A stretch of DNA of 37,882 nt from positions 1 through 37,882 of the IMG/VR virus record IMGVR_UViG_3300020392_000033, one strand, 5' to 3'. A model generated the notes under the pieces. The model saw nothing but the letters and a program-made list of their open reading frames with translations. It was not told the origin of the DNA and ran no database searches. Source of the stretch: a virus. This document shows, one piece after another, positions 1 to 9,785 of the stretch; within the stretch, counting starts at the first letter, position 1, and each line of letters starts with the position of its first letter. The translations under genes and the position numbers were made by a program.

Positions 1-2
1 TC

Positions 3-119
3 AAGGAGCAACGCTATCAGGACTTTCAAGAGTGGTTAAACAAATGCCCACTTGTAGTTACTGACTATCAGGACTATACAAATGAATTTGTAGTCACATT
101 CAATCTGGAGGCCGACTAA
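3..119 (+). CDS. Partial small hypothetical protein (3' end only)
   Basis: The last 38 codons of a reading frame entering from the left edge, ending in TAA. It contains an F-x-E-W-L segment followed by a C-P-L-V-V-x-D-Y stretch and has an acidic end. The stop overlaps the next start as TAATG, the coupling used throughout this gene chain, which supports it being translated. I do not recognise a family. The start lies outside the window, so full length is unknown. Confidence 0.55.
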   Translation, partial: KEQRYQDFQEWLNKCPLVVTDYQDYTNEFVVTFNLEAD

Positions 120-340
120 TGACTAAGGACAAATTAATTCACAACACTAAAACTTCACTCAGAGAGGAAGCAAAAGAGTATCTACCCACAGTCAAGGAAT
201 TTTATCCACACTTAGATGATTTACTGTTAGATCGTATATCTAAGTATTGTGTAGTCTATTCCAAAGGGAAGGATAAGGCAAGCATACGTCAGGCAATCAA
301 CGATTTTGAGGAAGCATTTGATGAGGAACTCACACAATGA
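119..340 (+). CDS. Small hypothetical protein (73 aa)
   Basis: A 73-residue charged protein with no signal peptide or membrane segment. It looks helical: an acidic/aliphatic middle (YPHLDDLLLDRISKY) is followed by a basic patch (SKGKDKASIRQ) and an acidic tail. The start overlaps the upstream stop (TAATG) and its own stop overlaps the next start (ATGA), so it sits inside a translationally coupled chain of small genes. I recognise no family or catalytic motif. The gene call is reasonable from coupling and codon use; the function is unknown. Confidence 0.65.
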   Translation: MTKDKLIHNTKTSLREEAKEYLPTVKEFYPHLDDLLLDRISKYCVVYSKGKDKASIRQAINDFEEAFDEELTQ

Positions 341-510
341 AAATAGAAGTCAACAAAGAACAACTTGAACTGCTCAAATATGCCATACTATGGTATGAGT
401 GTAATGATGAGCAAGAAGAGAGAGTATGTGAAGAGTTAGAAACTAAACTCTATCATGCACAGGAACAGGACTTACTCAGAACAGTCACAACTATCGGAGA
501 CTTAATTTAA
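337..510 (+). CDS. Small hypothetical protein (57 aa)
   Basis: A 57-residue, strongly acidic, probably all-helical protein, rich in Glu and Leu (EQLELLKYAILWYE, then an ERVCEELETKL helix). The ATG overlaps the upstream stop (ATGA) and the stop overlaps the next ATG (TAATG), leaving no gap on either side. This packing is the main evidence that it is real. No domain recognised. An isolated Trp-Tyr pair in the first helix may be a small hydrophobic contact surface. Confidence 0.6.
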   Translation: MKIEVNKEQLELLKYAILWYECNDEQEERVCEELETKLYHAQEQDLLRTVTTIGDLI

Positions 511-734
511 TGGATCACAACTTTAAAGACATTCTACACAATGTTGACATGACCGAAGGACAAATCAGCACCATTCTATATTGTCTTGAGGGATATATGC
601 AAGGCAATGATGATGAGAAATTGGTAAAGGAAATGGAGGACATTTTTGTAATACTGGAAGGTGTGATTGATCGGTTCTATGACAAGATGGAAAAGGCACA
701 GGCAAAACAACCTGTTGCAGAGTGGACAGACTAA
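510..734 (+). CDS. Small acidic hypothetical protein (74 aa)
   Basis: A 74-residue acidic helical protein, starting at the ATG that overlaps the preceding stop. Two amphipathic helices are likely, one around ILYCLEGYMQG and one through VKEMEDIFVILEGVIDRFYDKMEKAQ. No membrane segment or known motif. It ends the first coupled chain: the next gene has its own promoter, whose -35 box lies inside the last codons of this gene. Function unknown. Confidence 0.65.
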   Translation: MDHNFKDILHNVDMTEGQISTILYCLEGYMQGNDDEKLVKEMEDIFVILEGVIDRFYDKMEKAQAKQPVAEWTD

Positions 735-751
735 ACTCTTTCATGTATAAT
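723..751 (+). promoter_or_regulatory. Predicted sigma70-type promoter, TGGACA-17-TATAAT
   Basis: TGGACA at 723-728, a 17-base spacer, then TATAAT at 746-751. A start site near 757-759 would give a leader of about 18 nt before the ATG at 776. The sequence after the -10 (TTAATAGTAT) resembles that after the -10 boxes at 5396 and 5693, suggesting a shared phage early promoter form. Confidence 0.6.
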
Positions 752-775
752 TAATAGTATCAGGCTAAATCTTTC

Positions 776-1126
776 ATGTCAACGTCAGAACTTAACAAAC
801 TCAAAAATGCTCAATACCATTTAGATGAACTGGAAAAGATGATTTCAGAAAATAAATGGTATTCACATTTATATCAACATATTGCAGCTGTAGAGGGAGA
901 ACTTCAAAGACAGGTCAATATCTTAGAAAACTTACCAAAGGCAAAAACAGAGGATATAAAGGATACAGAGAAACTCTATGATGTATTAGAGAATCAAACT
1001 ACTGGATATTTTCTTCCAGATACTTCATATTCTTCGCTCACGAGGGTGGGCGCGGCCCAAAAATATGAGGAATTACTCTCAAGCGGAGTGTCACCAAATG
1101 ATATAAAGATCAAGAGAGTCAAGTAA
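776..1126 (+). CDS. Hypothetical protein (116 aa), helical N-terminus
   Basis: A 116-residue protein, the first gene behind the promoter at 723-751. Residues 1-60 look like one or two long helices (LNKLKNAQYHLDELEKMI, then VEGELQRQVNILENL), possibly a short coiled coil. Residues 75-116 are a more polar tail ending SPNDIKIKRVK. Its stop overlaps the next ATG. A short GC-rich patch near 1040-1060 stands out from the AT-rich surroundings but stays in frame. No family recognised. Confidence 0.65.
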   Translation: MSTSELNKLKNAQYHLDELEKMISENKWYSHLYQHIAAVEGELQRQVNILENLPKAKTEDIKDTEKLYDVLENQTTGYFLPDTSYSSLTRVGAAQKYEELLSSGVSPNDIKIKRVK

Positions 1127-1443
1127 TGTATGAACCAAAAGTTGATGATTATGTCATTTGGACTACAGAACTTGGTCAGGTACATGAGGGGTGGGTATAT
1201 TTTGTAGGAGAGGAGTCTCAACCAAAACGTGGGTGGCCGACTCATCAAACTTATCTGACGATTGAAATCGGCACGAAACCCAAACCATATTGCACATTGA
1301 CAAACGATAAACTTCATAAGAAAATACATATCTTACTATGTTGTTACAAGTATCAATGGGGAGAATTGCAATTTGTAAAAAGACGTAAGAGTAAGTATGA
1401 TGATACTGAACCTGATGTAATTATTGAGTATGGCAATGAATAA
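1126..1443 (+). CDS. Hypothetical protein (105 aa), beta-rich small protein
   Basis: A 105-residue protein coupled to the upstream gene (TAATG). The N-terminus (YEPKVDDYVIWTTELGQVHEGWVYFVG) looks like a small SH3-like or Tudor-like beta barrel: a hydrophobic strand, a turn, then a G-x-V-x-x-G-W-V strand. The middle has a short Cys pair (LLCCYKYQWG). The 3' end overlaps the start of the nucleotidyltransferase-cupin gene. The barrel reading is inference from strand patterning; function unknown. Confidence 0.6.
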   Translation: MYEPKVDDYVIWTTELGQVHEGWVYFVGEESQPKRGWPTHQTYLTIEIGTKPKPYCTLTNDKLHKKIHILLCCYKYQWGELQFVKRRKSKYDDTEPDVIIEYGNE

Positions 1444-2209
1444 AGAAAAAGTTGTATTAGTCACAGGAGGATTTGATCCGATACATGGTGGTCATGTCAA
1501 ATACTTTTCAGATGCAAAAAAACTTGGAGACAAATTGATCGTGGGTCTTAACTCAGATCATTGGCTGACACGCAAAAAAGGTCAACCATTTATGAACTTG
1601 GAGAACAGAGCAATCATTATACAGAGTCTTAATATGGTAGATGAGGTTATCATGTATAATGATGAAGATGATACGTCATGTCATGCTATCGAACAAGTAT
1701 TACATCATCATGATGAAGTCATCTTTGCAAATGGAGGAGATCGAATCATATTAAACATACCTGAGTATGAAAGTTTTAAAGATGATGAGAGAGTGAAGTT
1801 TGTATGCAATGTTGGAGGAGATAAGACAGAAAGTAGTAGTTGGTTACTGGATAAGTGGAAGAGTCCTACCACAATACGCAAATGGGGATACTATAAAGAA
1901 TTGTATATGGGAAAGGGATATAAAGTTAAAGAATTAGTGATTAAACCATTTTCATGTCTGTCAATGCAGAGACATGAACACCGATCTGAACTATGGAATT
2001 TAGTTAGCGGAAGTGCAGAAATACACATGGGAATCGGAGAGAATAAGATGGTATATGAACTGAGTGATAGTGCAAGTGTTTTAATTGAAAAGGGAGAATG
2101 GCACATGGGTTGTAACATGACTGATAAACCAGCCCATATAGTGGAAATATGGAGAGGAGATAACGATAAATTGACTGAAAATGACATCGAAAGAATCAAG
2201 ATAGATTGA
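1436..2209 (+). CDS. RfaE2-type nucleotidyltransferase fused to ManC-type cupin
   Basis: A 257-residue fusion. Residues 5-145 form a cytidylyltransferase-like domain: the HxGH motif is H17-G-G-H20, followed by an RfaE2-like R-K-K-G-Q-P segment at 46-51 with downstream R58, and an SSSWLL segment (133-138) where the ISTS-type signature belongs. Relatives join a nucleotide to a sugar or polyol phosphate. Residues 148-250 match the C-terminal cupin of type II mannose-6-phosphate isomerases (RKWGYY, GKGYKVKELVIKP, then QRHEHRSELW and GEWH; likely metal ligands H180, H182 and H223). I infer a role in making or modifying an activated sugar for host-surface or virion glycans. ATGs at 1424 and 1430 are also in frame; 1436 is chosen because the domain starts at once and it gives the shorter overlap. 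Confidence 0.85.
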   Translation: MNKEKVVLVTGGFDPIHGGHVKYFSDAKKLGDKLIVGLNSDHWLTRKKGQPFMNLENRAIIIQSLNMVDEVIMYNDEDDTSCHAIEQVLHHHDEVIFANGGDRIILNIPEYESFKDDERVKFVCNVGGDKTESSSWLLDKWKSPTTIRKWGYYKELYMGKGYKVKELVIKPFSCLSMQRHEHRSELWNLVSGSAEIHMGIGENKMVYELSDSASVLIEKGEWHMGCNMTDKPAHIVEIWRGDNDKLTENDIERIKID

Positions 2210-2319
2210 CTCAATATGAGGGCAAAAAGGTGGTGGATTTTAAGGTTATCATCAAACGAAGGTAAAAGGGCGAAATGTATCATATTATACCAATATCGGG
2301 GTATTTTACTTTAAAAAAC

Positions 2320-2341
2320 ATTTAAAAAACCTTTTTTAAAT
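2320..2341. repeat. AT-only inverted repeat
   Basis: ATTTAAAAAA at 2320-2329 and TTTTTTAAAT at 2332-2341 are perfect reverse complements separated by CC. As RNA this gives a weak A-U hairpin ending in a U run, so it may act as a weak terminator for the 776-2209 transcript. It abuts TATAAATG. Confidence 0.5.
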
Positions 2342-2358
2342 ATAAATGAGTGTTTTAT

Positions 2359-2368
2359 ACCGATCGGT
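2359..2368. repeat. 10-bp perfect palindrome ACCGATCGGT
   Basis: A perfect palindrome in non-coding DNA just downstream of a near-late-promoter box. It could be a dimeric regulator site, but only a single copy is present. Confidence 0.35.
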
Positions 2369-2544
2369 AGTCTGGATAGAATCTCTAGGTATTCTAAGTG
2401 GAATCTATACTCATTGAGGGTGTTAAATTCATGTAGAAATGTAGCCATCTGATGCAAGTTTAGCGAGCGTAGCATAAGGATCGGAGTTTGTCAAGTTTTT
2501 CGGAATTTTTTTGGTCAGAGAACCCACACAATTCTCATAAAATG

Positions 2545-2552
2545 TATAAATA
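2545..2552 (+). promoter_or_regulatory. T4-type late promoter box TATAAATA
   Basis: An exact TATAAATA, identical to the boxes upstream of genes 25 and 8. It lies about 20 nt before a separate consensus sigma70 promoter, so the 2626 ORF region may be transcribed both early and late. Confidence 0.5.
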
Positions 2553-2568
2553 ATAACTGTCCTTATAG

Positions 2569-2597
2569 TTGACAGATATATGAATCTCGACTATAAT
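2569..2597 (+). promoter_or_regulatory. Perfect-consensus sigma70 promoter TTGACA-17-TATAAT
   Basis: TTGACA at 2569-2574, exactly 17 bases, then TATAAT at 2592-2597. Both hexamers and the spacing match the bacterial consensus with no mismatch, so it should be strong for host RNA polymerase. The expected start is near 2604, about 22 nt before the ATG at 2626. The first TCTCGAC repeat sits in the spacer, directly against the -10 box. Confidence 0.75.
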
Positions 2598-2770
2598 AAG
2601 AATAAGCAAATCTAGACGAGAACTTATGGAAACTTATCTCGACTATGATATGTCATATGCAGATGATCTCGACGATGATTGGACATACGATCTCGACGAA
2701 GACTACAGCCATAGTCATATGAATCTCGACTATGCTGAGTTAGCATATAGGCATTATGCTTAATCTCGAC
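2585..2770 (+). repeat. Cluster of six TCTCGAC direct repeats
   Basis: TCTCGAC occurs at 2585, 2637, 2667, 2691, 2724 and 2764 (spacings 52, 30, 24, 33 and 40). Four copies fall in one frame of the 2626 ORF and encode x-Leu-Asp; one is in the promoter spacer and one just past the stop. Five CATATG palindromes (2654, 2716, 2779, 2799, 2831) are interspersed. Copies outside the ORF argue that protein repeats alone do not explain the pattern. Confidence 0.7.
2626..2763 (+). CDS. Acidic repeat micro-protein (45 aa)
   Basis: A 45-residue ORF about 22 nt downstream of the expected start of the perfect-consensus promoter. It is extremely acidic and Tyr-rich, with four loose repeats of (Y/D/N)-L-D-(Y/D/E): YLDYD, DLDDD, DLDED and NLDYA. 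It has no Lys and a single Arg near the C-terminus. Such a sheet of negative charge is known for DNA-mimic and anti-restriction proteins as a class, but no specific family is recognised. There is no clear Shine-Dalgarno. The repeats coincide with the TCTCGAC elements, so either the protein or the RNA may be the selected product. Confidence 0.5.
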   Translation: METYLDYDMSYADDLDDDWTYDLDEDYSHSHMNLDYAELAYRHYA

Positions 2771-2815
2771 GAGATGTGCATATGATGGGGGTCATGTGCA
2801 TATGGGCTCGAGATT
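2762..2815 (+). repeat. Inverted repeat enclosing an 11-bp direct repeat
   Basis: AATCTCGA at 2762-2769 is the reverse complement of TCGAGATT at 2808-2815. Between them ATGTGCATATG occurs twice (2774-2784 and 2794-2804), 20 bases apart. An RNA through here could form a long imperfect hairpin. It lies immediately after the stop of the 45-aa ORF. Confidence 0.5.
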
Positions 2816-2913
2816 GGATGTGCATGTTCACATATGCAAGTATGCTCAATTACTTGCACGAGATCATGCACGGGTTCGTCGCACATATTCATAGTACATA
2901 CGCATACGTGTAG
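2782..2913 (+). CDS. Possible Met/His/Cys-rich micro-protein (43 aa)
   Basis: An open frame of 43 codons starting MMGVMCIWARDWMCMF, with 7 Met, 2 Cys and 4 His and a hydrophobic, aromatic character. It follows the acidic ORF by 18 nt on the same predicted transcript, and ends before the terminator at 2970. There is no clear ribosome site, and the composition follows the CATATG/GTGCAT repeats of the DNA, so it may be a chance frame in structured RNA. Confidence 0.25.
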   Translation: MMGVMCIWARDWMCMFTYASMLNYLHEIMHGFVAHIHSTYAYV

Positions 2914-2969
2914 GTGAGTGGGTGAACTAGAGTAAGACATAATATGTGTGTAACATTTTATACTTCAAT

Positions 2970-3018
2970 ACTGACACATGCAAGGATTTCGGTCAATCGC
3001 CCCTGTGTCAGTTTTTTT
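2970..3018 (+). terminator. Intrinsic terminator, 9-bp perfect stem plus T7
   Basis: ACTGACACA (2970-2978) pairs perfectly with TGTGTCAGT (3004-3012), followed by a T run at 3012-3018. The loop is 25 nt, long for a terminator. It would end the transcript from 2604 at about 410 nt. Confidence 0.7.
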
Positions 3019-3248
3019 ATTGGCATAGGGGATGACTATGATATGTGTCAGTGGACAAATTGTCACAGCGAAACTTGACCGGCAATATTACAAAAGATTA
3101 CAAATATTATATCAAGGCAGGATGAGTGGCGAAGGTTGTTCAGTAGTGCTACCCCGCACCCTTTGTTTCTTGTTATATTCATTATAATTCATGATATGAT
3201 GAGAATCAACATGTATTGTGCCACTAATATTACTGTCACACTGGCTGG
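3019..3248 (+). other. Intergenic region without a convincing gene
   Basis: About 230 bases with no supportable + strand ORF. A 74-codon open frame on the opposite strand (3112-3336) crosses the promoter and start of the 3305 gene. It has an LDHLVPKS segment faintly like an HNH nuclease core, but no start signal or neighbours support it. No RNA gene seen. Confidence 0.4.
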
Positions 3249-3276
3249 TTGACTTTGGCACAAGATGATCTAATAT
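3249..3276 (+). promoter_or_regulatory. Predicted sigma70 promoter TTGACT-16-TAATAT
   Basis: TTGACT at 3249-3254 and TAATAT at 3271-3276 with 16 bases between, upstream of the 43-aa gene at 3305. A five-C run at 3292-3296 lies between the predicted start and the ATG, as for the genes that follow. Confidence 0.5.
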
Positions 3277-3304
3277 TGGATTGAAGTTAAACCCCCTAAA
3301 TTTT

Positions 3305-3436
3305 ATGAAACTCAATCGCAAAGAATATGAACTCATGTATGACGCATTTCAATACATGGAGTTCAAGATGAACAGAGATCAGAAAGAGATGGCAGATCAA
3401 ATATTAGATAGAGCATTTAACGAACCAGTTGAATAA
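3305..3436 (+). CDS. Small hypothetical protein (43 aa)
   Basis: A 43-residue ORF, mixed charge and Met-rich (KEYELMYDAFQYMEFKM), likely a pair of helices. It is the first of eight genes in this stretch whose ATG is preceded by a run of five or six C (here 3292-3296, ending 8 nt before the ATG) instead of a Shine-Dalgarno. It has its own promoter and is followed by a GC-rich hairpin, so it looks like a one-gene transcription unit. No family recognised. Confidence 0.6.
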   Translation: MKLNRKEYELMYDAFQYMEFKMNRDQKEMADQILDRAFNEPVE

Positions 3437-3445
3437 CTGTCACAA

Positions 3446-3473
3446 CCCCCCGTTGCATTTTTGTTGCGGGGGG
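3446..3473 (+). terminator. CCCCCCG/CGGGGGG stem-loop
   Basis: CCCCCCG at 3446-3452 pairs with CGGGGGG at 3467-3473 over a 14-nt loop, 9 nt after the stop of the 3305 gene. There is no long U tract; the next bases are the TATAAT of the following promoter. The -35 box of that promoter (TTGCAT) is in the loop, so terminator and promoter overlap. Confidence 0.55.
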
Positions 3474-3481
3474 ATTATAAT
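3453..3481 (+). promoter_or_regulatory. Predicted promoter TTGCAT-17-TATAAT
   Basis: TTGCAT at 3453-3458, 17 bases, TATAAT at 3476-3481. It drives the 3507 gene; a five-C run at 3494-3498 lies 12 nt after the -10. Confidence 0.6.
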
Positions 3482-3506
3482 GAAATCAATTAACCCCCTT
3501 ATTATT

Positions 3507-3635
3507 ATGAGTCATCAAGCAAACGTTGAATTACTTGAGTCAATCTTTGAAGAGGTGCAGGAGTCATTCCCCTACCTAGATGAAGAGAAACAGATCGAAA
3601 TTGCAAACAATCGTTTTTGGGATTTAGCACAGTGA
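3507..3635 (+). CDS. Small hypothetical protein (42 aa)
   Basis: A 42-residue acidic protein (MSHQANVELLESIFEEV, then YLDEEKQIEIANNRFWDLA), probably two helices. The frame is open further upstream, but the ATG at 3507 is chosen because upstream in-frame starts would put the promoter and the C run inside the gene. It also places the C run (3494-3498) 8 nt before the ATG, as for the 3305 and 4416 genes. No family recognised. Confidence 0.6.
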   Translation: MSHQANVELLESIFEEVQESFPYLDEEKQIEIANNRFWDLAQ

Positions 3636-3675
3636 TTAAACTTATCGTAATTATTCTTATCATTTTCTTTTTATA

Positions 3676-3780
3676 ATGGAACTTTTTATTCTCATCGGTG
3701 GTCTTTACTCATTGTACACAGTGGGCATGGCCATAGCCACGGAACTTGACTACAGAGAAATGAACAGGAGTAAGAAGTAG
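3676..3780 (+). CDS. Tiny predicted membrane protein (34 aa)
   Basis: A 34-residue ORF with one hydrophobic helix (LFILIGGLYSLYTVGMAIA) and a charged C-terminus (DYREMNRSKK), so probably a single-pass inner-membrane peptide with its basic end in the cytoplasm. Its ATG overlaps the stop of an even smaller frame, a GTG-started 14-residue hydrophobic peptide at 3632-3676. That frame itself overlaps the stop of the 3507 gene. This chain of couplings supports translation. Function unknown. Confidence 0.5.
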   Translation: MELFILIGGLYSLYTVGMAIATELDYREMNRSKK

Positions 3781-3807
3781 GACAGTTAATTAAGTGCACA
3801 CAATCGG

Positions 3808-3836
3808 TTGCAATCCTCTTCAAAATCCCTTATTGT
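3808..3836 (+). promoter_or_regulatory. Predicted promoter TTGCAA-17-TATTGT
   Basis: TTGCAA at 3808-3813 and TATTGT at 3831-3836 with 17 bases between. This puts the start near 3843, the first base of the closing stem of the folded RNA. An alternative -10, TATAAA at 3836-3841, would have a 22-base spacer. Confidence 0.5.
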
Positions 3837-3842
3837 ATAAAA

Positions 3843-3955
3843 GTAGAGAGCGGGGATAGTGAAGAGGGAGACACCGCGTAACCGGTCAGCTGCAGCTTAG
3901 TCCCACCCCTGAAAGCGGAGATCCGCCTTGAAGCATCTCTACAAATCATTTTTTT
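3843..3955 (+). ncRNA. Structured leader or small RNA with multi-branched fold
   Basis: The segment can form a nested multi-branch structure. The closing stem is GTAGAGA (3843-3849) with TCTCTAC (3936-3942). Inside, GGGG (3852-3855) pairs with CCCC (3906-3909) and GGGA (3866-3869) with TCCC (3901-3904). This arm carries two hairpins, ACCG/CGGT (3873-3876, 3883-3886) and AGC/GCT (3888-3890, 3895-3897). A further hairpin GCGG/CCGC (3915-3918, 3923-3926) has an AGAT loop. Seven T follow at 3949-3955. A promoter aligns its start with the first paired base. It could be a riboswitch or attenuator for the 3965 gene, or a free small RNA; I could not match it to a known family by eye. Confidence 0.55.
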
Positions 3956-3964
3956 ACCCCCATC

Positions 3965-4168
3965 ATGAAAGATTATTGGACACAGCCTGAGGGCACTTAT
4001 CGAAAGAAATTTTTCACTCGAAAGAATAGAAAAAAGTGGGTTGACCAGACTTACCTATTTTTTAACCAGATTGAAAAAGATTACAGATTGTTACATAAAC
4101 CATTTAAACCTGTTGTTTATGTTGATAATACATTACAATTAAAGAGAACACAACGAACCCCCCATTAA
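3965..4168 (+). CDS. Small basic hypothetical protein (67 aa)
   Basis: A 67-residue, Lys/Arg- and aromatic-rich protein (YRKKFFTRKNRKKWVDQTYLFF, then KPFKPVVYVD), likely to bind nucleic acid or another acidic partner. That is inference from charge only. The ATG comes 3 nt after the run of five C (3957-3961), itself just after the T run closing the folded RNA. The gene would therefore be controlled by that RNA if the RNA is a leader. The last codons contain the C6 run that precedes the next gene. Confidence 0.6.
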   Translation: MKDYWTQPEGTYRKKFFTRKNRKKWVDQTYLFFNQIEKDYRLLHKPFKPVVYVDNTLQLKRTQRTPH

Positions 4169-4173
4169 TTCAA

Positions 4174-4338
4174 ATGATTAATTACGATCAAAAGGAAGCA
4201 AAAAAAGTTTATAACGCTCTATTAGATTCAAAGGTTGATCTGTTAGAGTATTTCTTAGGCCCTGACCCTAGAAAGTCATCATACTATAAACAACACGTTA
4301 AACGCTACAGAGTGCAATCAATCCTAAATGATTATTAA
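4174..4338 (+). CDS. Small hypothetical protein (54 aa)
   Basis: A 54-residue protein of mixed charge, likely helix-turn-helix in outline: a first helix YDQKEAKKVYNALLDSK, a second around DLLEYFL, a GPDPRKSS turn and a basic tail YKQHVKRYRVQSILNDY. It starts 10 nt after a C6 run (4158-4163) that lies inside the end of the 3965 gene, with 5 nt between the two genes. No family recognised. Its stop codon lies in the stem of the following hairpin. Confidence 0.6.
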   Translation: MINYDQKEAKKVYNALLDSKVDLLEYFLGPDPRKSSYYKQHVKRYRVQSILNDY

Positions 4339-4359
4339 GGATTGTTACAACAACCTTAA
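4335..4359 (+). terminator. Stem-loop across the stop codon of the 4174 gene
   Basis: TTAAGG-A-TTGT (4335-4345, one bulged A) pairs with ACAACCTTAA (4350-4359) over a 4-nt loop. No U tract follows; a promoter does. It may stop read-through or protect the 3' end. Confidence 0.45.
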
Positions 4360-4383
4360 CACCCGCTGCCTATCGGTTATAAT
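4356..4383 (+). promoter_or_regulatory. Predicted promoter TTAACA-16-TATAAT
   Basis: TTAACA at 4356-4361, inside the 3' arm of the hairpin, and TATAAT at 4378-4383 with 16 bases between. The C5 run at 4403-4407 and the ATG at 4416 follow. Confidence 0.55.
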
Positions 4384-4415
4384 AGGTACATAGCAAACGT
4401 TACCCCCTTTAAACT

Positions 4416-4751
4416 ATGCGCAAGATTGAAGAAGAGATGAACAGAGCAATCCGTTACAGACGTAACTTCTCAAAGGCAAACACTTCCGTGAGATGTTTCA
4501 AAACAAACGGTGTTACAACTGATGTAGATGTTTTCTTACATGGCAATCACATTGCTTCACTTGATACAGCAACCAACCAACTCACAATTAAAGACGGTGG
4601 TTGGCAGTCCGTGACCACAAAGTCCAGACTTAACGCAATATTAGATGAGTTTGTTCCCAGTGCCGGCATCTTTCAGAAAGATTGGGTTTGGTACCTATCC
4701 GACAGACTAACAGGTTCAGTTGTTCCTTTCGTATCGGGTATGACACTTTAA
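4416..4751 (+). CDS. Conserved-type phage hypothetical protein (111 aa)
   Basis: A 111-residue protein. The central part reads as two beta strands around a GNHIASLD turn, then GGWQSVTTKSRLNAILDEF (a Trp/Thr-rich turn leading into a helix), then a DWVWYL segment. The G-x-x-I-A ... G-W ... T-T-K-S-R-L-N-A pattern is one I associate with small uncharacterised proteins of marine phages, where it tends to be well conserved; no function is known to me. The start is fixed by the C run (4403-4407) ending 8 nt before it. Confidence 0.7.
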   Translation: MRKIEEEMNRAIRYRRNFSKANTSVRCFKTNGVTTDVDVFLHGNHIASLDTATNQLTIKDGGWQSVTTKSRLNAILDEFVPSAGIFQKDWVWYLSDRLTGSVVPFVSGMTL

Positions 4752-4762
4752 TTAGTGTCTAC

Positions 4763-4789
4763 GGGCTGGTTGTTTTTTGCAACCAGTCC
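4763..4789 (+). terminator. 10-bp stem-loop overlapping the next promoter
   Basis: GGGCTGGTTG (4763-4772) pairs with CAACCAGTCC (4780-4789), one G-U pair, loop TTTTTTG. It is followed by TTTATAATT, so the U-rich tail of the terminator is also the -10 region of the next promoter. Confidence 0.6.
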
Positions 4790-4797
4790 TTTATAAT
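4770..4797 (+). promoter_or_regulatory. Predicted promoter TTGTTT-16-TATAAT
   Basis: TTGTTT at 4770-4775 (inside the hairpin) and TATAAT at 4792-4797 with 16 bases between. The leader from here to the ATG at 4889 is about 85 nt, much longer than for the other small genes. Confidence 0.5.
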
Positions 4798-4805
4798 TAA
4801 GTACA

Positions 4806-4865
4806 TAGGGCAGAGTTAAAGGATGCCGATCCCATAAGCAACTCGGATCTACTCATAAGACCCTA
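4806..4865 (+). promoter_or_regulatory. Possible folded 5' leader of the 4889 gene
   Basis: TAGGG (4806-4810) can pair with CCCTA (4861-4865), enclosing a second pairing of GATCC with GGATC (about 4828-4832 with 4854-4858). The closing stem covers most of the predicted leader and ends 8 nt before the C6 run (4874-4879). The short stems make this weaker than the 3843 structure. Confidence 0.35.
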
Positions 4866-4888
4866 CCAAATTACCCCCCAAAAGAATT

Positions 4889-5356
4889 ATGCCAAATTGG
4901 TGCGAAAACAGAGTTAGGTTATCTGACAATGGAGACAACTCAGAACAGTTTCAAAAATTAGTTAAAATATTAGATGGCCCGAATCCATTTAATACAATCT
5001 TTCCTAGGCCTGACTTTACAAAGATTCCAAACGACAAAGGCGAACTTCCAATTGAGGAGGAGATCAAAAACATGGATGGTGAGGTAGTTCATGTAACTTA
5101 CAACTTCCCAGATGGTAAAAATGATGATCGCTGGTATCACTGGAATGTTTCCAACTGGGGAACAAAGTGGGATATGTGCGACAAATTCATGGCAGAAATT
5201 GATGAAGAATCTGGCTATGCTGAATTTGGATTCAATACAGCATGGAGCCCAGCTGAGGGCATCTATCGTAAAATAACCGAAGATTTTCCAGATGTCAACA
5301 TCTCTTGGTTCTATGATGAGCCCGGCATGGAATTTGCAGGTTACTTACCTAATTAA
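4889..5356 (+). CDS. DUF1281/YubB-like ferredoxin-fold protein (155 aa)
   Basis: A 155-residue protein beginning MPNWCENRVRL, with W-N-V-S-N-W-G-T-K-W-D near residues 90-101, F-N-T-A-W-S-P-A around 114-121 and a C-terminal G-M-E-F-A-G-Y. These are the hallmarks of the DUF1281/YubB-like family seen in plasmids and phages: an N-terminal PNWC, an NWGTKWD core and a TAWSP motif. The fold is thought to be ferredoxin-like; the function is unknown to me. It has its own promoter and a possibly folded leader; a C6 run ends 9 nt before the ATG. Confidence 0.75.
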   Translation: MPNWCENRVRLSDNGDNSEQFQKLVKILDGPNPFNTIFPRPDFTKIPNDKGELPIEEEIKNMDGEVVHVTYNFPDGKNDDRWYHWNVSNWGTKWDMCDKFMAEIDEESGYAEFGFNTAWSPAEGIYRKITEDFPDVNISWFYDEPGMEFAGYLPN

Positions 5357-5365
5357 GTTTTGTTA

Positions 5366-5391
5366 CAGGTGCTCGCAATCGTGGGCATCTG
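5366..5391 (+). terminator. Stem-loop CAGGTGC/GCATCTG before a TATAAT box
   Basis: CAGGTGC (5366-5372) pairs with GCATCTG (5385-5391) with one G-U pair. It lies 9 nt after the stop of the 4889 gene and 4 nt before the next TATAAT. A short U run (TTTC) follows. Confidence 0.5.
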
Positions 5392-5401
5392 TTTCTATAA
5401 T
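5373..5401 (+). promoter_or_regulatory. Predicted promoter TCGCAA-17-TATAAT
   Basis: TATAAT at 5396-5401 with a weak -35 (TCGCAA, 5373-5378) in the loop of the hairpin. Downstream AGTAGTATA resembles the sequence after the -10 at 5693 (AATAGTATA), pointing to a conserved start-site region. Confidence 0.5.
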
Positions 5402-5427
5402 AGTAGTATAAACAACCCCCATCGATT

Positions 5428-5637
5428 ATGAACAGATTTTTTACTTACGTTGACCCAACTGAATATGAAATGACTCAGGAAGGTCTTATGAAAGCGTGTT
5501 TAGCAGAAGTAATTGCTGAAGCAAAGGACAGCGGAGATTATCCAATGTACCGCACAGAAGATTTAATCCTATCTGCAAAATGGAAGATGGAAGAGATATT
5601 AAACGACATATCCCAGTTAATAGAAGCACATCTCTAA
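5428..5637 (+). CDS. Small acidic hypothetical protein (69 aa)
   Basis: A 69-residue acidic protein, mostly helical in pattern (EYEMTQEGLMKACLAEVIAE, then EDLILSAKWKMEEILNDI). No membrane segment or known motif. The start is 7 nt after a C5 run (5416-5420) and about 20 nt after the predicted start site. A stem-loop and promoter follow it directly, so it is a one-gene unit. Function unknown. Confidence 0.6.
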   Translation: MNRFFTYVDPTEYEMTQEGLMKACLAEVIAEAKDSGDYPMYRTEDLILSAKWKMEEILNDISQLIEAHL

Positions 5638-5657
5638 TGTAAACAATTATTTCGATT

Positions 5658-5682
5658 CACGCATTTTTACCCTAAATGCGTG
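5658..5682 (+). terminator. 9-bp perfect stem-loop CACGCATTT/AAATGCGTG
   Basis: CACGCATTT (5658-5666) and AAATGCGTG (5674-5682) are perfect complements over a 7-nt loop (TTACCCT). It lies about 20 nt after the stop of the 5428 gene and is followed by GATTATCTTTTATAATA, giving a T-rich tail that runs into the next -10 box. Confidence 0.6.
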
Positions 5683-5692
5683 GATTATCTTT

Positions 5693-5698
5693 TATAAT
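5693..5698 (+). promoter_or_regulatory. TATAAT -10 box with conserved AGTATA downstream
   Basis: TATAATAATAGTATAAC closely matches the element at 5396. No good -35 is seen at 16-18 bases, so the promoter may rely on the -10 region or on a phage factor. A C5 run at 5714-5718 and the ATG at 5726 follow. Confidence 0.45.
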
Positions 5699-5725
5699 AA
5701 TAGTATAACAAAACCCCCAAAGTTT

Positions 5726-5980
5726 ATGAACAGACCCGAAGCAATAGCAAACAGAATCAAATCAAACGACAACTTTGAAAACGTAGCATACGTATGTTGC
5801 GATTGGGAAGAGTTCGTTTTTGAAGTTGCAGAGTGGGGAGTCGATCACATTGCAACAATTGATTTTGATGATCTTACACCTGATGAAGTGAATCAGTTAG
5901 ATGACTTCATTGCCTCTTTCGGTTGCTCACCTGAGAACCCACACCCATGTTCAAAGTACGCTGACCCTATTTTTATCTAA
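5726..5980 (+). CDS. Small acidic hypothetical protein (84 aa)
   Basis: An 84-residue acidic protein with a ferredoxin- or Rossmann-like alternation of strands and helices (VAYVCCDWEEFVFEVAEW, then HIATIDFDDLTPDEVNQLDDFI) and four Cys (two adjacent, two near the C-terminus in FGCSPENPHPCS). No family recognised. A C5 run lies 7 nt upstream of the ATG. Its stop overlaps the next ATG, so it is co-translated with the 5980 gene. Confidence 0.6.
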   Translation: MNRPEAIANRIKSNDNFENVAYVCCDWEEFVFEVAEWGVDHIATIDFDDLTPDEVNQLDDFIASFGCSPENPHPCSKYADPIFI

Positions 5981-6156
5981 TGAAACCAATTTTATTCACG
6001 GAAGCAGAGTTGGAAACCATCGAAGCAGCGATGGAGGATTACCAACACTACGCAGACCCAGACACTCCCCCATCTGATTTAATCGGGGGATTACCCGTTG
6101 AGGATAGAGTCAATTCAATCCTTGATAAAATTACTACTTCTTATTGCGATCTATGA
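5980..6156 (+). CDS. Small acidic hypothetical protein (58 aa)
   Basis: A 58-residue acidic protein with an N-terminal helix (FTEAELETIEAAMEDYQHYA), a Pro-rich turn (DPDTPPSDL) and a second helix (EDRVNSILDKITTSY). The start overlaps the stop of the 5726 gene (TAATG) and its stop overlaps the start of the ligase-like gene (ATGA). It therefore belongs to a three-gene coupled unit. No family recognised. Confidence 0.6.
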   Translation: MKPILFTEAELETIEAAMEDYQHYADPDTPPSDLIGGLPVEDRVNSILDKITTSYCDL

Positions 6157-7094
6157 CCAACGTTAAACACTTAGAACACCCAGAGGACACAATCCTTACA
6201 GGCGATTTAGATATACTGGGTTGGTTTCAGTCTGCGGGTCGCCTATCCGTAAAGATTGACGGGGCTCCAGCAATCGTCTGGGGGTGCTGCCCTACTACTG
6301 GTTACGGGTTCGTGGGTACGAAGTCCGTATTTAATAAGAAGAATCCAAAAATCTGTTATACTGTAGAAGATATTGAACGTCATTATGGCCATATACCCGT
6401 ATTAGTTCACATCTTAGAATTTTGCCTTGAGTACCTACCAATGACAAAATACATCTATCAGGGTGACTGGATTGGTTTCGGAGGTGAGAGGGATTATACA
6501 CCGAATACTTTAACATACTTATTTCCCAATCACGTAGATCAAAATATTATTATTGCACCACATACTCGTTATGAGTTGTGTGGAGACAATGGGCTACAGG
6601 ACGTTTACGGGTTGCCAATCAATCAGGGCGAACTGAAGTCTAATGAAGTTTGTCGTTTCGTTCAACCACGTTGTCGTGTTGAAACTGGCCACTACAATCA
6701 GCATGACGGAGACAACCGTTTTCAGTTGGGAAACCGTATTGAGTTTGCTCGCCAGATATCCGCTTCAGTTGAGTTCGTGGATAAAAAGACAGCAGGTAAA
6801 CTGAAGAAGGCATTTAATAAAGCAATCCGTGACGGTGTGGAGATAGACCCAGAGACTTTTGAATTTGAGGGAGTGGATCGCAACCTGATTCGCCTTTGGT
6901 CATTCCTGCGTTGCATTAAGTTAGATGCTCTTTACCAGTGCAGACATGACCACAGTTTAGAAACTTACTTTCAAGGTGATGAGGCAGAGCATGAGGGCTA
7001 TGTGTTTGATAATGGATTTGGAACTTATAAGTTAATTAACCGTGAGGTGTTCAGTAGGAATAATTTTAATCATTCACGAATGGCTAGGGGGTAG
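6153..7094 (+). CDS. KxDG ligase/nucleotidyltransferase-like protein (313 aa)
   Basis: A 313-residue protein with the ordered motifs of the covalent nucleotidyltransferase (ATP-dependent DNA/RNA ligase) superfamily. Motif I is K34-I-D-G37 followed by A-P-A-I-V-W-G; a YQGDWIGFGGE segment sits where motif III is expected; motif IV is E281-G-Y-V-F; motif V is T-Y-K293-L-I-N. K34 would be the adenylated lysine. It lacks the long N-terminal domain of cellular ligases and could seal RNA or DNA ends or adenylate another substrate. The ATG at 6153 is chosen because it overlaps the previous stop; an upstream TTG at 6144 is in frame. Related phage proteins are usually left unannotated, so the class is well supported but the substrate is not. 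Confidence 0.65.
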   Translation: MTNVKHLEHPEDTILTGDLDILGWFQSAGRLSVKIDGAPAIVWGCCPTTGYGFVGTKSVFNKKNPKICYTVEDIERHYGHIPVLVHILEFCLEYLPMTKYIYQGDWIGFGGERDYTPNTLTYLFPNHVDQNIIIAPHTRYELCGDNGLQDVYGLPINQGELKSNEVCRFVQPRCRVETGHYNQHDGDNRFQLGNRIEFARQISASVEFVDKKTAGKLKKAFNKAIRDGVEIDPETFEFEGVDRNLIRLWSFLRCIKLDALYQCRHDHSLETYFQGDEAEHEGYVFDNGFGTYKLINREVFSRNNFNHSRMARG

Positions 7095-9681: not shown

Positions 9682-9785
9682 AAACCGAACAAATCTTAAA
9701 AATTTACATTGAAGTAACCAAAAAAACCAAAAAATCTCCCTATACACCAAAAAGAACCCACTATAACATACACACATACGGATGA
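9678..9785 (+). CDS. Small basic ORF directly upstream of speD (35 aa)
   Basis: A 35-residue ORF with a Lys/Thr-rich centre (EVTKKTKKSPYTPKRTHY). It overlaps the previous stop and the speD start by 4 nt each (ATGA). It could be a genuine micro-protein or an upstream ORF whose translation delivers ribosomes to speD. No family recognised. Confidence 0.45.
   Translation: MKTEQILKIYIEVTKKTKKSPYTPKRTHYNIHTYG

Follow-up and report, generated by a model that had tools for sequence, protein, structure and literature searches.

An 11-bp palindrome, TCTMGWCKAGA, recurs two to eight times at one locus of T4-like cyanophages, upstream of a putative early promoter, in its −35/−10 spacer, just 5′ of an ATG and within the open reading frame (ORF) that follows, and the explanation favored here, at slightly better than an even chance, is that these repeats constitute an operator array on that promoter. 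The locus was studied in a linear IMG/VR fragment of a T4-like cyanophage (37,882 bases; the whole of it is referred to as the window), in which speD, at 9782, is followed downstream by gp25- and gp6-like genes.

The left part of the palindrome, TCTCGAC, had been reported as six direct repeats in an initial annotation of the window made from the sequence alone. All six were found on the + strand and clustered at 2585-2770, with none elsewhere in the 37,882 bases, and six copies were reached by none of 5000 dinucleotide shuffles of 2545-3018, in which the maximum was one. That TCTCGAC belongs to a larger palindrome was seen across relatives. Five CATATG palindromes had been remarked upon as well. 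These are present within 2654-2836, and five copies of CATATG appeared in 1 of 5000 shuffles; however, some 6-mer reached five copies in 215 of 5000, and copies are partly lost in close relatives, so that the cluster is weak and CATATG was set aside as a functional unit.

The promoter proposed in the same annotation matches the TTGACA-17-TATAAT consensus at all 12 positions and was the highest scoring of 35 promoter-like sites in positions 1-7000, and a strong early promoter at this site is plausible. The late box said to lie upstream of it was also located, as TATAAATA; the published cyanophage late motif is NATAAATA (PMC2984593), and a late-type box occurs in 16 of 92 homologous loci as compared with 1.2% in the control. 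The stem of the intrinsic terminator contains the nine pairs claimed for it (ACTGACACA/TGTGTCAGT) around a loop of about 30 nt, because of which a strict terminator scan passed it over, and it is graded here as probable. This stem is mostly kept in two relatives, in part through one-sided or compensatory changes.

Table 1. Mapped features of the array locus and its surroundings, in window coordinates.
Feature	Position	Strand	Remarks
Fused cytidylyltransferase-like and mannose-6-phosphate isomerase/cupin gene	1424-2209		Upstream of the locus
Conserved noncoding element AAGTTTAGCGAGCGTAGCATAAGG...TTTGTCAAG	2456-2495	+	Upstream of the array; aligned in L004 and L006
Late-type box TATAAATA	2545-2552	+	Seen in the sequence; 16 nt upstream of TTGACA
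Early sigma70-type promoter (putative), TTGACA-17-TATAAT	2569-2597	+	12/12 match; kept in L004, L006, L014 and P-SSM2
TCTCGAC site, imperfect palindrome TCTCGACTATA	2585-2591	+	Inside the −35/−10 spacer
Intact palindrome TCTAGACGAGA	2611-2621	+	5′ UTR, just before the ATG
Acidic microprotein gene, 45 aa, LAYRHYA family	2626-2763	+	45-codon ORF; P-SSM2 homologue annotated as PSSM2_098
TCTCGAC in ORF	2637-2643	+	Encodes L-D
TCTCGAC in ORF	2667-2673	+	Encodes L-D
TCTCGAC in ORF	2691-2697	+	Encodes L-D
TCTCGAC in ORF	2724-2730	+	Encodes L-D
Imperfect hairpin	2762-2815	+	Arms contain TCTCGACGAGA and CTCGAGA; GGGGG in loop
Intact palindrome TCTCGACGAGA	2764-2774	+	Abuts the stop codon; kept in L004, altered in L006
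Probable intrinsic terminator	2970-3018	+	9-bp stem, long loop, T7

Searches of INPHARED returned no match to the window locus by blastn and none to the microprotein by tblastn, results which alone would have suggested an orphan; scans of IMG/VR showed otherwise. More than 100 homologous loci were collected from IMG/VR and from isolates, among them the model phage P-SSM2 (locus near 66 kb), S-SKS1, S-T4 and S-SRM01. Most of them, like those of the isolates and the window, lie some 5-10 kb 5′ of gp25-gp6. The array locus is not unique to the window, and the phages that carry it infect both marine and freshwater cyanobacteria. Two close relatives (L004 and L006), reached through the upstream nucleotidyltransferase-cupin gene, keep the promoter, repeats, ORF, hairpin and terminator. 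More distant homologues (L013, L014 and L015) were retrieved with the pattern TTGACA-N10-TCTCGACTATAAT, and blastn with these three led to the isolates S-T4, S-SRM01 and Sf-CH5 and to the single-cell contigs AG-345-L05 and AG-345-F15. Two further matches to the promoter pattern (L011 and L012) do not share the locus, resemble promoters of other phages and were set aside. A pattern for the C-terminus of the ORF matched at least 120 stretches, and among the matches listed nearly all encode proteins of the MYDDYDLDYTY...DLDEDYARDGQDYESLAYRHYA type. A motif-independent profile search upstream of gp25 identified the gene in P-SSM2 (PSSM2_098) and S-SKS1, and the gene was absent genome-wide from seven other cyanomyoviruses. 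The TCTCGAC cluster was recovered at homologous loci of related cyanophages in this way, and among the homologous loci recovered none lacked both the repeats and the ORF. Since the loci share descent, counts across them are not counts of independent events.

The surroundings of the locus hold further conserved sequence. The AAGTTTAGCGAGCGTAGCATAAGG...TTTGTCAAG element is found in marine relatives (L015 3535-3570, L194 9923-9960), in P-SSM2 and in Sf-CH5; within 320 nt upstream, GCGAGCG occurs in 45 of 92 loci and YGTCAAS in 80 of 92, as compared with 1.5% and 9%, respectively, in controls. Downstream, a conserved stretch, GGCAGG..GAGTGGCGAAGGTTGTTCAGTAGTGCTACCCCGCACCC (window 3095-3180, L020 2480-2550, L194 10470-10540), could represent a further structured RNA or a regulatory element. 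Inverted repeats of the TGTGCCACT...AGTGGCACA type recur between small cyanophage genes (window 3217-3240; the L040 and L046 clusters).

The palindromes take up preferred positions. Across 105 distinct loci, the motif core is frequent between about −200 and the end of the ORF and nearly absent beyond, with TCTCGAC at 16.4 per kb between −100 and 0 and 12.3 per kb in the ORF versus 0.08 per kb between −600 and −200. In a less redundant set of 94 loci, the peaks measured from the ATG fall at about −15, −55, −87, −120 and −152 and, inside the ORF, at +17, +50 and +85; three of these loci have a misplaced ATG, two of which were corrected for the −10-box positions that follow, and the third was omitted from the codon and orientation counts. 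The site at about −15 is present in 80 of 93 loci. Relative to the first base of the −10 box, sites in relatives are centered either 12-15 nt upstream, which places them in the spacer, or 27-30 nt downstream. P-SSM2 has the arrangement TTGACA-ATCTCGACTAGATCTGG-TATAAT, in which the spacer is a full palindrome, followed by ATCTCGACTAGATTCTC ahead of the ATG. Spacings between sites group at 22-25, 31-33 and 40-43 bp; helical phasing is suggested by these values but was not adopted, as they do not fall cleanly into 10.5-bp steps.

The array is confined to this one locus, joined in freshwater relatives by one or two others nearby. Perfect sites are limited to it in P-SSM2 (252 kb) and S-SKS1 (208 kb), and to it and its duplicate copy in S-T4; S-SRM01 has them at the locus, in a cluster 5 kb downstream and at one stray position, and the whole genome of Sf-CH5 has none. 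The additional clusters of freshwater relatives, with two to six sites each, lie 1.3-8 kb downstream and ahead of other small genes, a pattern such as a regulon would give.

Variation within the palindrome bears on how it is read. At positions 4 and 8 the combinations CG, AG, CT and AT were counted 123, 44, 28 and 13 times, with about 11 expected for AT, and the half-sites vary independently. Together with a palindromic consensus whose degeneracy is symmetric, this independence favors recognition of half-sites in double-stranded DNA, and it contradicts pairing of the palindrome in RNA. An RNA-level element, in which UCUCGACGAG in the 5′ UTR and ORF would act in the mRNA as the target of an RNA-binding protein or small RNA, or would serve as a decoy, is considered unlikely. 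It would account for the orientation of the site in the transcribed UTR, which is sense in 78 of 78 loci and counts against a symmetric operator, for which no fixed orientation is needed; this orientation could, however, be inherited or, in the ORF, set by coding. The predicted transcript of about 410 nt also folds more stably than its shuffles (z −3.9), and the stem of the hairpin after the stop codon is mostly kept in L004 and L006. Yet sites 5′ of the promoter occur in both orientations, about one third of sites would be unable to pair across the middle, and no Rfam covariance model matched in the window. Small-RNA titration or a decoy RNA, which the initial annotation had put forward among possible purposes of the transcript, is accordingly not retained as the main role, given the extension of the element 5′ of the promoter, its two orientations there and the lack of covariation between half-sites.

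The 45-codon acidic ORF, described correctly in the initial annotation and having a net charge of −13, belongs to a true protein family of acidic proteins with a C-terminal LAYRHYA (median charge −13; called lengths 37-71 aa), and the microprotein is conserved and probably made. It had no match in Pfam and none below E 0.01 in PHROGs, and an AlphaFold model (pLDDT 62, pTM 0.18) gave no confident fold, with a possible C-terminal helix. The DNA-mimic role offered in the initial annotation would require a defined fold in addition to acidity, and on these values it is neither favored nor disfavored. PSSM2_098 (T4-GC 94) and SfCH5_53/SWZG_00191 are members of the same family at the homologous locus and are annotated merely as hypothetical proteins; in S-T4 and S-SRM01 the ORF carries no annotation. 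The C-terminus varies synonymously, although its absolute conservation is biased by the search pattern, which fixed part of it (GCATAT, CAYTAYGC). In most relatives the microprotein gene is followed by a partner gene of about 50 codons (QKRLVRVTLDIMCYDDLDVE..WKELLELEGDE, phrog_12516; L023 2836-2988, S-T4 record 2484-2606), which is absent from the window and from P-SSM2.

Every copy of TCTCGAC in the ORF lies in the same frame, as would be expected if the repeat were simply the Leu-Asp codons of a repetitive peptide. This explanation is contradicted on three counts and is hardly credible: copies lie outside the ORF, including upstream of the promoter in relatives; arrays occur where no such ORF does; and the codon bias exceeds what the peptide requires. 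Leucine is encoded by CTC in 197 of 257 LD dipeptides but in 0 of 92 LAY motifs, aspartate following leucine by GAC in 78% of cases versus 30% elsewhere, and glutamate following LD by GAG in 89% versus 50%; an aspartate codon preceding LD has T as its third base in 176 of 178 cases. The codon choice indicates that bases of the ORF are constrained beyond the need for amino acids, with a nucleotide constraint laid on top of coding, and the earlier claim that protein repeats alone do not explain TCTCGAC is borne out. The array and the ORF also dissociate in both directions, since four relatives (L240, L295, L258 and L259) have four to eight sites and the partner gene without such an ORF, and Sf-CH5 has the ORF and promoter without sites.

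Under the operator explanation, TCTMGWCKAGA would be the binding site of a sequence-specific, dimeric DNA-binding protein, encoded by phage or host. Several dimers would occupy the preferred positions upstream of, within and just 3′ of the promoter; those bound in the spacer and around +15 to +20 would obstruct RNA polymerase, and flanking sites would add cooperativity. The promoter would be strong on arrival and then shut off as the protein accumulated. The transcript would encode the acidic microprotein, which is conserved and about 45-70 aa long, and, in most relatives, a second protein of about 50 aa next to it, with operator copies continuing into the ORF and doubling as Leu-Asp(-Glu) codons. 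Binding, repression and early timing are predicted here. The sites are repeated, dyad-symmetric and sequence-specific, and they overlap or flank the promoter at preferred positions, the clade of L240 and L295 being an exception; their density and confinement, the codon choice in the ORF and the further clusters ahead of small genes also favor an operator. In that clade, with L258 and L259, most of the array lies 5′ of the likely promoter, which speaks against an operator, as do the downstream clusters without an obvious sigma70 promoter, the site spacings that miss clean 10.5-bp steps and the presence of just two full palindromes among the copies in the window.

Candidates for the binding protein were sought among the phage genes. 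An AbrB-like protein (phrog_661) was rejected, being present in 10 of 12 cyanomyoviruses irrespective of the array, and so was the partner protein of about 50 aa, which is missing from array-bearing P-SSM2 and the window and present in phages without an array; a model of the latter had no match in the PDB. A comparison of gene presence and absence between four array-bearing and four array-less genomes yielded no clear DNA-binding candidate. No regulator candidate emerged, which counts against the operator explanation, and the array is not assigned here to any named repressor system. When 84,980 prokaryote species were scanned for perfect sites in close pairs, no cyanobacterium was found to have one, which mildly favors a phage-encoded binder. 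The same result weighs against a titration array, in which sites on incoming phage DNA would soak up a host DNA-binding protein. Such a role would suit a cluster of two to eight sites in a 500-bp stretch, as seen in phages whether their hosts are marine or freshwater; few sites per genome, however, would titrate little before replication, and we regard titration as quite improbable. A contig binned as Rhodobacteraceae (RGAJ01000223.1; L147 1-180) carries seven palindromes, mostly 24 bp apart, and a gene ending as in freshwater cyanophages, and appears to be a phage contig that was misbinned. The remaining non-cyanobacterial matches were taken as chance, L144 and L147 being the ones read.

T4-like cyanophages lack MotA and AsiA, and how they govern transcription of early and middle genes is unsettled (PMC2984593). 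It can be proposed, tentatively and with considerable doubt, that the array belongs to an undescribed control system of these phages, in which a phage-encoded regulator acting on palindrome arrays at early promoters would partly fill the MotA/AsiA gap, and in which the microprotein gene would have arisen from or within its own operator array, the same bases serving as operators and as Leu-Asp-Glu codons. No account of a T4-like cyanophage operator array superimposed in part on a microprotein gene turned up in the literature searched, most subscription journals lying outside its scope. The array at one locus of P-SSM2 and S-SKS1, on a putatively strong early promoter, offers a direct handle as bait for the protein, and P-SSM2 is already cultured with its host. 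Through the locus a widespread microprotein gene, left without annotation in several genomes, is recognized as well, and the array illustrates clearly how conservation of nucleotide sites can be superimposed on a reading frame.

Among known systems, oriE of T4, with its 12-nt repeats and repEA/repEB, resembles the array locus in having clustered short repeats beside an early promoter, tiny flanking ORFs and a position upstream of gene 6, and repEB, at 45 aa, is equal in length to the microprotein of the window (PMC3016281). By analogy, the array could be an iteron-type replication origin, in which an initiator or accessory protein would bind the repeats and RNA from the early promoter would prime replication, as proposed for oriE. 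In keeping with an origin, the array is found a single time per genome or restricted to one region, and in the window, P-SSM2, S-T4 and S-SRM01 it lies upstream of gp25-gp6. This origin is nonetheless judged improbable, to about the same degree as the RNA-level element. No sequence similarity to the oriE repeats or to RepEB was evident by inspection, and repEB and repEA are antisense to gene 5 (PMC3016281). The array region of P-SSM2 is not unusually AT-rich, the extra clusters sit directly ahead of small genes, and Sf-CH5 retains the gene without the array. GC skew was uninformative because it is monotonic in P-SSM2 and S-SRM01. The T4 repeats, moreover, differ from TCTMGWCKAGA and map onto the 24-nt coding repeats in gene 5. 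In T4 these 24-nt repeats correspond to repeated VEGN/VKGN codons (L301 3403-3570, T4 79.4 kb), and the so-called oriE iterons may be protein-coding repeats. The CfrI antisense RNA of S-PM2 also comes from a T4-like cyanophage and is a short, non-structural transcript, but it runs antisense to psbA and to a homing endonuclease gene, whereas the array locus lies elsewhere and is sense, with an ORF (PMC2984593).

Operator arrays themselves are of a known kind. As described in two reports (PMC9283540, PMC6550527), lambda-type operators and the operators and stoperators of mycobacteriophage cluster A likewise place multiple short protein-binding sites at an early promoter, with more at other transcription units. 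The mycobacteriophage sites are, according to the same reports, asymmetric, spread genome-wide in temperate phages and bound by a known repressor. Those of the cyanophages, which are lytic T4-like phages, are palindromic, restricted to a single locus or a few neighboring ones and carried in part inside coding sequence, with a binder that is putative.
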